A stretch of DNA of 64,000 nucleotides, from positions 806,001-870,000 of the forward strand of contig NZ_WTYN01000001.1 of the NCBI RefSeq assembly GCF_009827535.1, written 5' to 3'. The stretch comes from Qipengyuania oceanensis (GTDB lineage Bacteria > Pseudomonadota > Alphaproteobacteria > Sphingomonadales > Sphingomonadaceae). This document shows positions 21,730-27,485 of this stretch, one piece after another. Numbering within the stretch: the first letter of the stretch is position 1; each line of letters begins with the position of its first letter. Position numbers and translations under genes: made by a program. Below the pieces are notes generated by a model that saw only the letters and a list, made by a program, of their open reading frames with translations, was not told the DNA's origin and ran no database searches.

Positions 21730-22239
21730 TCACCCCATCGGACCCTTCTCGGGCGCGTAGTCCGGCTTCGCACCGTCGCCGTGGCGCAATTCGGCCAGAA
21801 TCTTCTTGAGCACGTCGAGCTGCGGATCGGTCGGCACCTCGTCGCTCTGCGAGCTGTCTTCCGTTTCCATCTGCTTTTTCTGCATTTCTTCGGTCACCTT
21901 GTTCACGCTGCGCACGAGCATGAAGAGAGCGAAGGCGACGATCAGGAAATTGATGACCGCGGTGATCAGCGCGCCGTAGCCGATCATGGCGACGCCGGCT
22001 TCCTTGAGTTGCTCGTAATTGTCGAGTGCCCCCTCGTACCCTTCGGGCACGTCACCCAGGCGGATGAACCAGTTGGAGAAATCGATCTCGCCGAAGATCC
22101 AGCCGATGACCGGCATGATGATCGCCTCGGTCAGCTGGGTCACGATCCCGCTGAACGCCGCCCCGATGACGACGCCGACCGCGAGGTCCACGACATTGCC
22201 GCGCGCGATGAATTTCTTGAACTCGGTCCCCAGGCTCAT
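21730..22239 (-). CDS. mscL: Large-conductance mechanosensitive channel
   Basis: Inner-membrane pentameric channel that opens under membrane tension to release solutes on osmotic downshock. The 169-residue product starts MSLGTEFKKFIARGNVVDLA, then AVGVVIGAAFSGIVTQL (first membrane helix) and GYGALITAVINFLIVAFALF (second helix). The cytoplasmic tail is longer and more acidic than in E. coli (ETEDSSQSDEVPTDPQ). ATG at 22239 is clear. It is divergent from lemA. Confidence 0.96.
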   Translation of the reverse strand: MSLGTEFKKFIARGNVVDLAVGVVIGAAFSGIVTQLTEAIIMPVIGWIFGEIDFSNWFIRLGDVPEGYEGALDNYEQLKEAGVAMIGYGALITAVINFLIVAFALFMLVRSVNKVTEEMQKKQMETEDSSQSDEVPTDPQLDVLKKILAELRHGDGAKPDYAPEKGPMG

Positions 22240-22389: not shown

Positions 22390-22992
22390 ATGAACTTCAC
22401 TGCCATCCGCCGCTATGCGCTGGTCGCCATGGCCTCGTTCGGCCTCGCGGCCTGCGGGATCAACTCCGTCCCCGCCGCGGAAGAAAACGCCAAGGCGAAG
22501 TGGGCCGATGTCGAGGCGCAGTTCCAGCGCCGCGCCAACCTCATCCCGAACCTGGTCGAAGTGACCAAGGGCGCCGGCGAGAACGAGCGCGCGATCCTGA
22601 CCGAAGTCACGAATGCACGCGCCCGGGCGACCGGCATCAACATCCAGGGCGACGATCTGAGCGATCCCGAGAAAATGGCGGAATTCCAGGCGGCGCAGAA
22701 CCAGCTCGGCCAGGGTCTCGGCCGCCTGCTGGCGAGCTTCGAAGCCTATCCGCAAATCCAGTCGAACCAGAACTACCTCGCGCTGCAGAGCCAGCTCGAA
22801 GGGACCGAAAACCGCATTGCCGTGTCGATCCGCGACTACAACGAGGCGGTGCGCCAGTATAACACCACCATCCGCACCTTCCCCGACACGATCGGCGCGA
22901 ACATCATCCACGGTGCAGAGCCGATGGTGCCCTACAAGGCCACCACCGAAGGGGCCGAGGTCGCACCGACCATCGACATGACCGCCAACTGA
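22390..22992 (+). CDS. lemA: LemA family lipoprotein
   Basis: A 200-residue LemA protein with a lipoprotein signal (VAMASFGLAACGINS, Cys22 in the lipobox). The LemA core is visible as AEENAKAKWADVEAQFQRR, ANLIPNLVEVTKGAGENE and the end motif RDYNEAVRQYNTTIRTFPD. LemA function is unsettled. It is followed after 8 bases by a TPM-domain gene, the common LemA-TPM pairing in bacteria, which suggests joint work at the inner membrane or periplasm. Confidence 0.93.
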   Translation: MNFTAIRRYALVAMASFGLAACGINSVPAAEENAKAKWADVEAQFQRRANLIPNLVEVTKGAGENERAILTEVTNARARATGINIQGDDLSDPEKMAEFQAAQNQLGQGLGRLLASFEAYPQIQSNQNYLALQSQLEGTENRIAVSIRDYNEAVRQYNTTIRTFPDTIGANIIHGAEPMVPYKATTEGAEVAPTIDMTAN

Positions 22993-23000
22993 GCGGTTCG

Positions 23001-23801
23001 ATGCGCCGCCTCGCCCTCCTGTTCGCCCTCGTGGCGGGGCTTCTCGCCCTGCCCGCATGGGCGCAACCGAGCTTTCCCGAGCTGACCGGTCGCGTGGTCG
23101 ACAACGCCGACCTGCTCTCGCCGGAGGAAGAGGCGCAGCTGACAGCGCAGCTCGAAGGGCTGGAAACCCGCACCCAGCGCCAGCTCGTCGTCGCGACCAT
23201 CCCCGATCTCGAAGGCTACGACATCGCGGACTACGGCTACCAGCTGGGCCGGGCGTGGGGCATCGGCGATGCCGAGCGCAACGACGGTGCGCTGCTGATC
23301 GTCGCGCCGAACGATCGCAAGGTGCGCGTCGAAATCGGCTACGGGCTGGAAGGCGTAATGACCGATGCGCTTTCCTCGGTGATTATTCAGCAGGACATCC
23401 TCCCGCGCTTCCGCGACGGCGACATGGCTGGCGGGATCATCGCAGGGACCGATGCGCTGGTGCGCCAGCTCGAACTGCCCGAAGACGAGGCGCGGGCGGT
23501 GGTCCAGCAGGCCAGCGAGAGCCAGTCCGACGGCGGCTTTCCCATCGGGGCGATCATCTGGATCGCCTTCGTGTTCTTCTTTTTCGTGCTGCCCATGCTG
23601 AGGGGCGGCAAGCGCTATCGCCGCAGGGGTGTTGGCGGCGCGGTCGGCGACATCATCCTGTGGGAAGCCGGCAAGGCCATTGCCCGCGGCGCGAGCGGCG
23701 GGGGTGGCGGAGGCTGGGGCGGCGGCGGCTTCGGTGGCGGCGGGGGCTTCTCCGGCGGTGGCGGCAGTTTCGGAGGCGGCGGCGCCTCCGGGGGGTGGTG
23801 A
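23001..23801 (+). CDS. TPM-domain (YgcG-type) membrane protein
   Basis: A 266-residue protein with a signal peptide (LLFALVAGLLALPAWAQ) and a TPM domain at about 25-150 (PELTGRVVDNADLLSPEEEA, VATIPDLEGYDIADYGYQLG, KVRVEIGYGLEGVMTDAL). One membrane helix near 180-197 (IGAIIWIAFVFFFFVLPML) is followed by a Gly/Ser-rich cytoplasmic tail of about 45 residues (GGGGGGWGGGGFGGGGG and on). TPM domains occur in photosystem-repair and membrane-quality factors; the substrate here is unknown. The next gene encodes a second TPM protein. Confidence 0.9.
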   Translation: MRRLALLFALVAGLLALPAWAQPSFPELTGRVVDNADLLSPEEEAQLTAQLEGLETRTQRQLVVATIPDLEGYDIADYGYQLGRAWGIGDAERNDGALLIVAPNDRKVRVEIGYGLEGVMTDALSSVIIQQDILPRFRDGDMAGGIIAGTDALVRQLELPEDEARAVVQQASESQSDGGFPIGAIIWIAFVFFFFVLPMLRGGKRYRRRGVGGAVGDIILWEAGKAIARGASGGGGGGWGGGGFGGGGGFSGGGGSFGGGGASGGW

Positions 23802-25027: not shown

Positions 25028-25810
25028 ATGGCAGGTCGGGTAGCGGGCAAGCTCGCATTGGTCACGGGCGCGGCGCAGGGTCTGGGTGCGGCGCATTGCA
25101 TGACGCTCGCGCGGGAAGGCGCGAGAGTTCTGTGTACCGATATCAACGGCGAAGGTGCGGCCGCGACGGCTGCGGCGATCAACGACGCGCATGGCGCGGA
25201 TACCGCCTTTTCGATGCAGCACGACGTCACCAGTCCCGAACAATGGGACGAGGCGATCGAGATGGCGGCAGACAAGCTCGGCGGCCTGTCGGTACTCGTC
25301 AACAACGCCGGGGTCGGCGTTCGCGGCAATATCGAGACCTGCACGCTGGAGGAATGGCGCAAGGGCTTCGCGATCAATGTCGATTCGGTGTTTCTTGGCT
25401 GCCAGAAGGCCTTGCCACTGATGAAGGACAACCAGCCCGGGTCGATCATCAACATCAGCTCGATCGCCGGTCTGATCGCCAGCGATACCATGCCGGGCTA
25501 CAATGCCAGCAAGGCGGCGGTGTGGATGCTGTCGAAATCGGTCGCCCTCTATTGCGGCAAGATGGGATGGAACATCCGCTGCAATTCGGTCCACCCGACG
25601 TTCGTCGATACACCGATCCTGGACGGGATCACGCGGAATTCTGGACATCCCAAGGACGTGGTGATGGGCAAGCTGGCGCGGCAGATTCCGCTCAAGCGGG
25701 TCGGCGTGCCGCAGGAAATCGCCGACGGGGTGCTGTTCCTCGCCAGCGACGAGAGCAGCTTCATGACCGGAGCCGAGCTCAAGCTCGACGGCGGCATCTC
25801 GGCCATGTGA
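25028..25810 (+). CDS. Short-chain dehydrogenase/reductase
   Basis: A 260-residue classical SDR. Cofactor motif LALVTGAAQGLGAAHCM and CTDIN at the end of beta-2 favour NAD(H). NNAG is at about 91, and the catalytic Ser-Tyr-Lys is in NISSIAGLIASDTMPGYNAS followed by KAAV. HPTFVDTPILDGIT and the end SSFMTGAELKLDGGISAM are typical of cyclohexanol or 3-hydroxysteroid-type members, but the substrate is not predictable. It starts 2 bases after the NUDIX stop. Confidence 0.92.
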   Translation: MAGRVAGKLALVTGAAQGLGAAHCMTLAREGARVLCTDINGEGAAATAAAINDAHGADTAFSMQHDVTSPEQWDEAIEMAADKLGGLSVLVNNAGVGVRGNIETCTLEEWRKGFAINVDSVFLGCQKALPLMKDNQPGSIINISSIAGLIASDTMPGYNASKAAVWMLSKSVALYCGKMGWNIRCNSVHPTFVDTPILDGITRNSGHPKDVVMGKLARQIPLKRVGVPQEIADGVLFLASDESSFMTGAELKLDGGISAM

Positions 25811-25846: not shown

Positions 25847-26060
25847 AGTCTGCGATCAGGGCGATCGCGAGGTAGACCAGGATCAGCGAACCGAAGCCGA
25901 TCAGCGTGCCGAGCACGAAGCCGATGCGGACCATGGTCGCGTCGATCCCGAAGTAGTTGGCGATCCCCGAGCATACGCCCCAGATCTTGCCGTTGTTTCG
26001 GTCGAGACGAAACTCGCGCGAAGGCGGGGTACCAACCGGGCGGACGTCGAGTTTGCTCAT
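25845..26060 (-). CDS. pspC: PspC-domain membrane protein
   Basis: A 71-residue PspC-domain protein: RLDRNNGKIWGVCSGIANYF, then GIDATMVRIGFVLGTLIGFG and LILVYLAIALIAD form the usual helical pair in the inner membrane. PspC proteins take part in the phage-shock response to membrane stress, often with PspA and PspB. Its ATG overlaps the stop of the 39-residue gene upstream (ATGA), and both lie behind a sigma-54-like promoter. No pspA or pspF is in the window. Confidence 0.9.
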   Translation of the reverse strand: MSKLDVRPVGTPPSREFRLDRNNGKIWGVCSGIANYFGIDATMVRIGFVLGTLIGFGSLILVYLAIALIAD

Positions 26061-26176
26061 GCGAGAACTCCCGAGCCGACGAGGCTGGGCGAAGCGGGCG
26101 CAATCGCCATGGCGAGGAAGACGGCCGAGAAAGCGATCGAGCTTACGGCTGCAAGAAAACGGTTGGAGAGTGACAT
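26057..26176 (-). CDS. 39-residue membrane peptide coupled to pspC
   Basis: MSLSNRFLAAVSSIAFSAVF then LAMAIAPASPSLVGSGVLA: a short basic N-terminus and one hydrophobic helix (about 8-26), either a membrane anchor or an uncleaved signal. ATG at 26176 has AAAGGG upstream, and the TGA overlaps the pspC ATG, so translation is coupled. It is too small for homology to be certain; the overlap and shared promoter are the main support. Confidence 0.7.
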   Translation of the reverse strand: MSLSNRFLAAVSSIAFSAVFLAMAIAPASPSLVGSGVLA

Positions 26177-26234
26177 GGTATTTTTTCCCTTTTTACCTGC
26201 CGGCGGAGTGATTTCCACCGACACCCAACTCTTT

Positions 26235-26250
26235 GCATAGGGTGTGCCAA
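26235..26250 (-). promoter_or_regulatory. Sigma-54 (RpoN) -24/-12 promoter
   Basis: The minus strand reads TTGGCACACCCTATGCAA: GG, exactly 10 bases, GC, inside a close match to the TTGGCAC-N5-TTGC consensus. Transcription would start near 26224, 48 bases before the ATG of the 39-residue gene. Sigma-54 control is the rule for psp operons in enterobacteria. Confidence 0.75.
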
Positions 26251-26322
26251 TTCGCGCAAATGACGGAATTCAGCCATTGTTCATCCTAGCGACGCGTTTT
26301 TGACCATCGCTCGACGCCGATT

Positions 26323-26341
26323 GTTGGTGAAAATGACCAAC
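26323..26341 (-). promoter_or_regulatory. Putative enhancer palindrome for a sigma-54 activator
   Basis: Perfect inverted repeat GTTGGT-N7-ACCAAC about 100 bases upstream of the predicted sigma-54 start. A related half-site (GATGGTCA, at 26302-26309) lies between it and the promoter. The position and repetition fit an upstream activating sequence for a PspF-like enhancer-binding protein. Confidence 0.5.
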
Positions 26342-26405: not shown

Positions 26406-27485
26406 ATGCTCGACCGCATCGCCCTCTCCCGCTTCCGCAATCATGCCGAAACCGCGCTCGATGGTGCGGGCAAGCTCAACCTGTTGCTGGGCGAGAACGG
26501 CGCGGGCAAGACCAACGTTCTCGAAGCCTTGTCGCTCTTCGCGCCCGGACGCGGACTGCGCAGGAACCGTCCGTCCGATATGGCTTCGAATGGGGGTGAC
26601 GGCGGCTTCGCGATCGGCGCATCGCTGGCGACCGGCGGGGAAAGCGTGCGCCTCGCGACCTTCGTGGAAGCAGCCCACCCGAACAGGCGGAACGTCCAGA
26701 TTAACGGCGCGCCCTCCCCGGCGACGGCGCTCGGCGAATGGGTCGCGGTGAGCTGGCTGACGCCTGCAATGGATGGCCTCTTCGCCGACAGTGCCGGTGC
26801 GCGGCGACGCTACATGGACCGGCTTGCCGTGGCGCTCGACCCGCTTCATGCCCGCCACGCGGCCCGGTACGAGCAGGGTTTGCGCGAACGCAACCGGCTG
26901 CTCGCGGACGATGCCGCGCCCGATCCGGCCTGGCTCGACGGCATCGAGGCGCAGATGGCTGAACACGGGTTTGCGCTGGCAACAGGGCGAGCACGGCTGG
27001 TTGCCGACCTCGTCGAAGCGCTATCGCACCTGCCGGACGAGCCCTTCGCACGCCCTGCTCTCTCCTATGACGCGGGTGGTCCGCTAGACCGCGCAGAACT
27101 CGCCGCCCGCTGGCATTCCAACCGGCAGCGCGACCGTGCCGCCGGACGCACGCTCACCGGTCCCCAGCGCGACGAGCTGTCGGTGACGATGTCCCGCAAT
27201 GCGATGCCTGCCGCCGATTGTTCGACCGGTGAACAGAAGGCGATGCTGATCGCCATGACGCTGGCCCATTCGGAACTGGCCGCGCGCGGGCGGCCGAGCG
27301 TGTTGCTCCTCGACGAGGTTGCTGCCCATCTCGATCCGCGTCGCCGCGCGGCACTGTTCGAGCGCCTGAACGAAGGCGCAGCCCAGGTCTGGATGACGGG
27401 AACCGAACCTGCTCCATTCGACGAAATTGTCGGATCGAGCGCCTATTGGCGCGTGGCCGGCGGATCGGTGCGCAAGATCGGCTAG
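26406..27485 (+). CDS. recF: DNA replication and repair protein RecF
   Basis: An SMC-like ATPase that helps load RecA at gaps with RecO and RecR. The 359 residues show IALSRFRNHAETALDG, Walker A LLLGENGAGKTNVLEALS, the signature DCSTGEQKAMLIAMTLAHSE and Walker B PSVLLLDEVAAHLDPRRRAA. It is not beside dnaA/dnaN/gyrB here. Its TAG stop shares CTAG with the convergent arylesterase stop. Confidence 0.96.
   Translation: MLDRIALSRFRNHAETALDGAGKLNLLLGENGAGKTNVLEALSLFAPGRGLRRNRPSDMASNGGDGGFAIGASLATGGESVRLATFVEAAHPNRRNVQINGAPSPATALGEWVAVSWLTPAMDGLFADSAGARRRYMDRLAVALDPLHARHAARYEQGLRERNRLLADDAAPDPAWLDGIEAQMAEHGFALATGRARLVADLVEALSHLPDEPFARPALSYDAGGPLDRAELAARWHSNRQRDRAAGRTLTGPQRDELSVTMSRNAMPAADCSTGEQKAMLIAMTLAHSELAARGRPSVLLLDEVAAHLDPRRRAALFERLNEGAAQVWMTGTEPAPFDEIVGSSAYWRVAGGSVRKIG

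Follow-up and report, generated by a model that had tools for sequence, protein, structure and literature searches.

The transcription unit described here lies on the minus strand of a 64-kb window (the whole stretch of DNA that was analyzed; contig C1) of the 2.87-Mb genome of Qipengyuania oceanensis, where it is flanked by the divergent recF gene (26406-27485, plus strand) and a convergent SDR gene (plus strand, end at 25810). Read 5′ to 3′, it consists of a perfect palindrome, a sigma-54 element, a hairpin in the 5′-UTR, an ORF of 39 codons, and an ORF of 71 codons for a PspC-domain protein, the two ORFs sharing an ATGA in which the stop codon of the first overlaps the start codon of the second. 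At a distance of a few kb, three envelope-related proteins are encoded, an MscL-like (21730-22239, minus strand), a LemA-like (22390-22992, plus strand), and a TPM-domain protein (23001-23801, plus strand), all of which appeared ordinary when inspected by eye.

The predicted −24/−12 promoter TTGGCACACCCTATGCAA (26250-26233, minus strand) shows the GG-N10-GC arrangement that an earlier note on this DNA had recognized, and the “48 bases” given there correspond to the distance from the predicted transcription start (+1, near 26224) to the ATG at 26176. By itself, the motif is not rarer than chance, its exact matches in the genome (13) being no commoner than those of the reversed pattern (16), and the sigma-54 consensus was therefore dropped as stand-alone evidence. 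Instead, the significance of the promoter derives from its conservation, as it was kept as YTGGCACR-N5-TGCAA in 19 of 19 inspected loci of relatives, and from the constant distance that separates it from the enhancer.

The palindrome GTTGGT-N7-ACCAAC (GTTGGTCATTTTCACCAAC; 26341-26323, minus strand) is indeed perfect, as had been claimed, and starts 91 bp upstream of the −24 TTGG. It is predicted to be an enhancer (upstream activating sequence) for PspF because its motif matches that of the pspA enhancer: GTTGGTNATTTTCAC is matched perfectly at exactly two places in 2.87 Mb, one being the palindrome in the window and the other lying in the pspF-pspA intergenic region. To score such sites, a palindromic matrix of 19 bp was seeded with two sites, that of pspA in Q. 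oceanensis itself and its counterpart in the pspA promoter of E. coli; only pspA promoters (29, from 29 genomes) were used for training, and the recF-side promoters were held out. The window palindrome scores 17.9 with this matrix; the enhancer stretch of E. coli MG1655 pspA (GTTAGTGTAATTCGCTAAC) scores 18.3, while also being one of the two seeds. In each of the 19 held-out recF-side promoters, the best site exceeded those of dinucleotide shuffles (p between 0.002 and 0.036), with a combined Fisher p of 4e-28, which overstates the evidence as relatives are not independent samples. Sixteen of these 19 sites are located at −90 or −91 from the −24 TTGG, which is also the commonest position in pspA promoters. 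After the addition of 30 further units from named genomes, sites at −90 to −92 were found in 46 of 49 recF-side units, and the score was at least 14 bits in 43 of them. At the level of sequence, this constant spacing, maintained while the interior bases change, is more telling than the combined p. In relatives, the palindrome recurs with the motif and the distance seen between pspF and pspA, as expected of a PspF enhancer upstream of a −24/−12 promoter. The “related half-site in between” (GATGGTCAAAAACG, at −58), on the other hand, did not hold up: its score with the enhancer matrix is −0.7, and the 49 units share no conserved second site.

Both regulatory proteins that such an arrangement calls for, and for which the earlier note had proposed to search, are encoded in the genome: RpoN (PF04552, 230 bits) and PspF (TIGR02974, 474 bits; cut-off, 443.55). 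A classical psp locus is present on contig C4 (L011), with pspF divergent to a sigma-54 promoter that is followed by a small peptide ORF, pspA, pspB, and a full-length pspC. PspF scored above the cut-off in 29 of the 30 family genomes examined, and the only genome devoid of it (G017), a single negative case, is also devoid of any PspC match. As far as it is visible by sequence, the PspF regulon of Q. oceanensis is two units.

In nearly all relatives, a small hydrophobic peptide heads the main psp operon. This leader is signal-like and comprises 45-66 aa (4554-4390, minus strand, in L011 of Q. oceanensis; psp loci L064-L092 in relatives), and it often overlaps by GTGA or ATGA the start of an N-terminally extended PspA (..SRLDEEVERLRRSPTPTQ..MGIFSRTRDII). 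In two genomes (L064 of G024 and L072 of G027), the leader ORF extends to 162-172 aa, presumably encoding a periplasmic domain after the signal-like helix. Judged by their sequences, the main-operon leader peptides appear related in design to the recF-side peptide, homology being unproven.

The predicted recF-side mRNA starts with a hairpin (TGTCGGTGGA AATCAC TCCGCCGGCA; 26198-26223, minus strand) folding at −17.3 kcal/mol. Across the 49 units, the mean z at this place was −2.28, with 43 of them below −1, compared with −0.06 and +0.82 for control stretches. The sequence of the hairpin is variable among recF-side mRNAs, and the structure is weaker in pspA mRNAs; possibly, it acts as an mRNA stabilizer. 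Directly upstream of the −24 element, a second palindrome survives as a degenerate remnant (ATGGCTGAATTCCGTCAT; 26260-26277, minus strand). In ∼15 relatives (many Erythrobacteraceae units), a near-perfect version (ATGGCGGAATTCCGCCAT, AATGGCGGAATTCCGCCATT) occupies the equivalent place. It is a candidate for an operator or a terminator-like element.

The first ORF (26176-26057, minus strand) encodes the membrane-type peptide of 39 residues, MSLSNRFLAAVSSIAFSAVFLAMAIAPASPSLVGSGVLA, with either a single transmembrane or a signal-peptide-like segment, and its overlap with pspC via ATGA is as had been described. This tiny gene is conserved, its divergence being lower at the amino acid than at the synonymous level (dN/dS of close pairs, 0.06-0.56; median over all usable pairs, 0.31). 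A small ORF whose first ATG follows 68-83 nt after the −24 element was present in 19 of 19 loci. An alternative GTG start at 26224 (55-aa form) was rejected, as translation would begin at the predicted +1, whereas both the conserved distance and a Shine-Dalgarno (SD) sequence go with the ATG start. The peptide is built from a polar N-terminal stretch with Arg, an Ala/Ser/Val/Phe helix, an AIxPASP motif, and a short tail. Its last codons carry the SD sequence of pspC (GGAG), and the tail GVxA encodes that of the next gene, so the C-terminal conservation is partly that of an SD sequence. When only ORFs before pspC were counted, one copy of the peptide was found in 30 of the 49 units, two in 15, and three in 4; two or three tandem copies are thus present in 19 of 49. 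Searches of Pfam and NCBIfam returned no family for the peptide, those of the small Psp membrane proteins PspG, PspB, and PspD included, and related peptides yielded only noise below the thresholds. Members detected with a peptide profile were located almost solely at the recF-side locus; the Ala-rich hydrophobic helix makes homology of distant members hard to prove.

The second ORF (26060-25845, minus strand) encodes a PspC of 71 aa (hereafter mini-PspC), which consists of the PspC domain only (PF04024, E = 5.7e-18; 64.9 bits, gathering score 25). It does not reach the threshold of the PspC equivalog TIGR02978 (57.4 bits vs 104), matching only positions 2-59 of the 121 in that profile. Alignment with the full-length PspC of the same organism and with E. 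coli PspC showed that mini-PspC ends where the PspC domain ends. In E. coli PspC, this domain corresponds to residues 1-68, the zipper at 77-98 is required for contact with PspA, and the fragment 40-68 still binds PspG (PMC3068692). The counterpart of the zipper is absent from mini-PspC; the transmembrane part is kept, including Gly55, the equivalent of G48. Across all 49 units, mini-PspC measures 58-84 aa. In other Sphingomonadales, a short-type PspC is encoded within the psp operon itself, flanked by pspB and pspC, which provides a second tie of mini-PspC to the Psp system.

A pspC unit with a sigma-54 box and a small ORF was found at each of the 19 inspected loci, and recF was present in the stretch examined at most of these. 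Named genomes from which the unit was recovered belong to Erythrobacter, Altererythrobacter, Pelagerythrobacter, Qipengyuania, Croceibacterium, Aurantiacibacter, Blastomonas, Novosphingobium, Sphingorhabdus, and Sphingobium. At one locus in Novosphingobium and at those in Sphingobium, no recF was seen in the stretch examined. These named Sphingomonadales keep the sigma-54 box together with the 5′ hairpin, the peptide, and mini-PspC.

Based on comparative sequence analysis, the recF-side unit is very probably a second transcription unit under PspF/sigma-54 control, belonging to the phage-shock (Psp) regulon for envelope stress in Sphingomonadales. The earlier interpretation as a phage-shock-type response arm was largely right, given that rpoN, PspF, a classical psp operon, and a shared enhancer motif are all present in the genome. 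Regulation is strongly supported by the comparative evidence, and control by PspF is predicted with near certainty; the role at the protein level is one that we infer, an effector function of the peptide and mini-PspC appearing, by analogy, reasonably probable. In E. coli, PspA keeps PspF inactive, and membrane stress releases PspF. By the same logic, PspA would hold PspF inactive in unstressed cells of Q. oceanensis, and stress at the inner membrane would free it to bind the palindrome at −91 and to activate RNA polymerase-sigma54 at the −24/−12 element, together with the pspABC operon. The resulting transcript would begin with the 5′ hairpin and encode the membrane peptide of ∼40 residues, from which translational coupling via ATGA would lead to a PspC domain without the C-terminal signaling part. 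In the inner membrane, peptide and mini-PspC may then modulate the Psp complex or serve as its effectors, similar to PspG of E. coli, with the peptide presumably being needed in quantity (hence the tandem copies) and beyond serving as a mere leader for pspC. A farther-reaching reading, to which we assign nearly, though not quite, an even chance, is that both PspF/sigma-54 transcripts in Sphingomonadales, that of the recF-side unit and that of pspABC, are headed by members of one undescribed microprotein family under PspF control, and that this family constitutes a high-copy membrane effector of the Psp response, with the stripped-down PspC as its intramembrane partner.

As four other clear sigma-54 activators are encoded in the genome, the promoter might be driven by one of them (NtrC, NtrX, or PrsR-like), with the palindrome serving that protein instead of PspF. 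This is highly improbable, considering that the palindrome equals the pspF-pspA enhancer and differs from other sigma-54 sites: only two of the 13 exact sigma-54-like sites in the genome have the enhancer, those of the window unit (17.9) and of pspA (18.3), and the next-best site, ahead of a P-II-like gene, scores 6.8. Furthermore, the matrix accommodates the PspF enhancer of E. coli as well as the window palindrome.

The small ORF, in turn, might be nothing but a translational leader, whose translation exposes the pspC start via ATGA coupling while the peptide itself has no role. The overlap with pspC by ATGA or GTGA in 14 of 19 loci would agree with this notion, as would the conserved C-terminal GVxA residues encoding the pspC SD sequence. 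However, other units have retained the peptide without the overlap, peptide dN/dS is well below 1 in close pairs, and the tandem ORFs in 19 of 49 units have their own SD sequences. Moreover, G019 (L216) represents a natural loss, in which the same kind of promoter, the hairpin, and two peptides are retained and the pspC gene is missing; the peptide is, thus, not merely a pspC leader. The tandem copies and this PspC-less unit make an exclusive leader role distinctly unlikely. Somewhat less unlikely, yet still not favored, is that the peptide is a cleaved secretion signal, its short C-terminal tail being released to act in the periplasm, in signaling or protection, rather than residing in the membrane. 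The layout resembles that of a Sec signal, with small residues ahead of a possible A-x-A site, and the leader proteins of the sister psp operon have clear signal-peptide ends (..AMA-A..), in two genomes followed by a presumably periplasmic part of 160-170 aa. In contrast, the tail of the recF-side peptide after the helix is ∼10 residues long, variable, and partly dictated by the SD sequence of the next gene; it is the helix and the AIxPASP junction that are conserved.

The recF-side unit resembles E. coli pspG, an orphan PspF/sigma-54 unit whose product is a small inner-membrane Psp effector that binds the membrane segment of PspC (PMC3068692, PMC9239133, PMC3709507), in being a predicted remote second PspF target with its own sigma-54 promoter, a single enhancer, and a small putative membrane protein. 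Unlike PspG, the peptide has only ∼40 aa and one hydrophobic helix, belongs to no Pfam or NCBIfam family, is often encoded in tandem, and is predicted to be cotranscribed with a PspC-domain protein; also, the clade is that of Alphaproteobacteria. The unit shares the enhancer motif, the −91 spacing, and the sigma-54 box with the organism's own pspF-pspABC region (L011). As in pspABC, a small membrane peptide leads the transcript, and the coupling of a membrane protein to PspC by overlap resembles pspBC; unlike pspABC, the recF-side unit lacks PspA and PspB, and its PspC lacks the C-terminal region. YohP of E. coli is a stress-induced small membrane protein of <50 residues with a hydrophobic helix. 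The recF-side peptide would share size, helix, and presumed stress induction with YohP; operon and regulator differ.

A literature search found no description of the recF-side unit, and no unit of this kind is among the PspC variants in the accessible part of the catalogue in PMC11237479. Earlier literature notes that PspF of the Psp type had been described from Enterobacteriaceae only. Comparative sequence data now point to PspF control in the Sphingomonadales, an order of Alphaproteobacteria, where the second PspF target encodes undescribed microproteins, often amplified in tandem, and a PspC that lacks the C-terminal region. The unit may offer a small and defined system for probing tiny Psp peptides and the membrane portion of PspC in the absence of contact with PspA.
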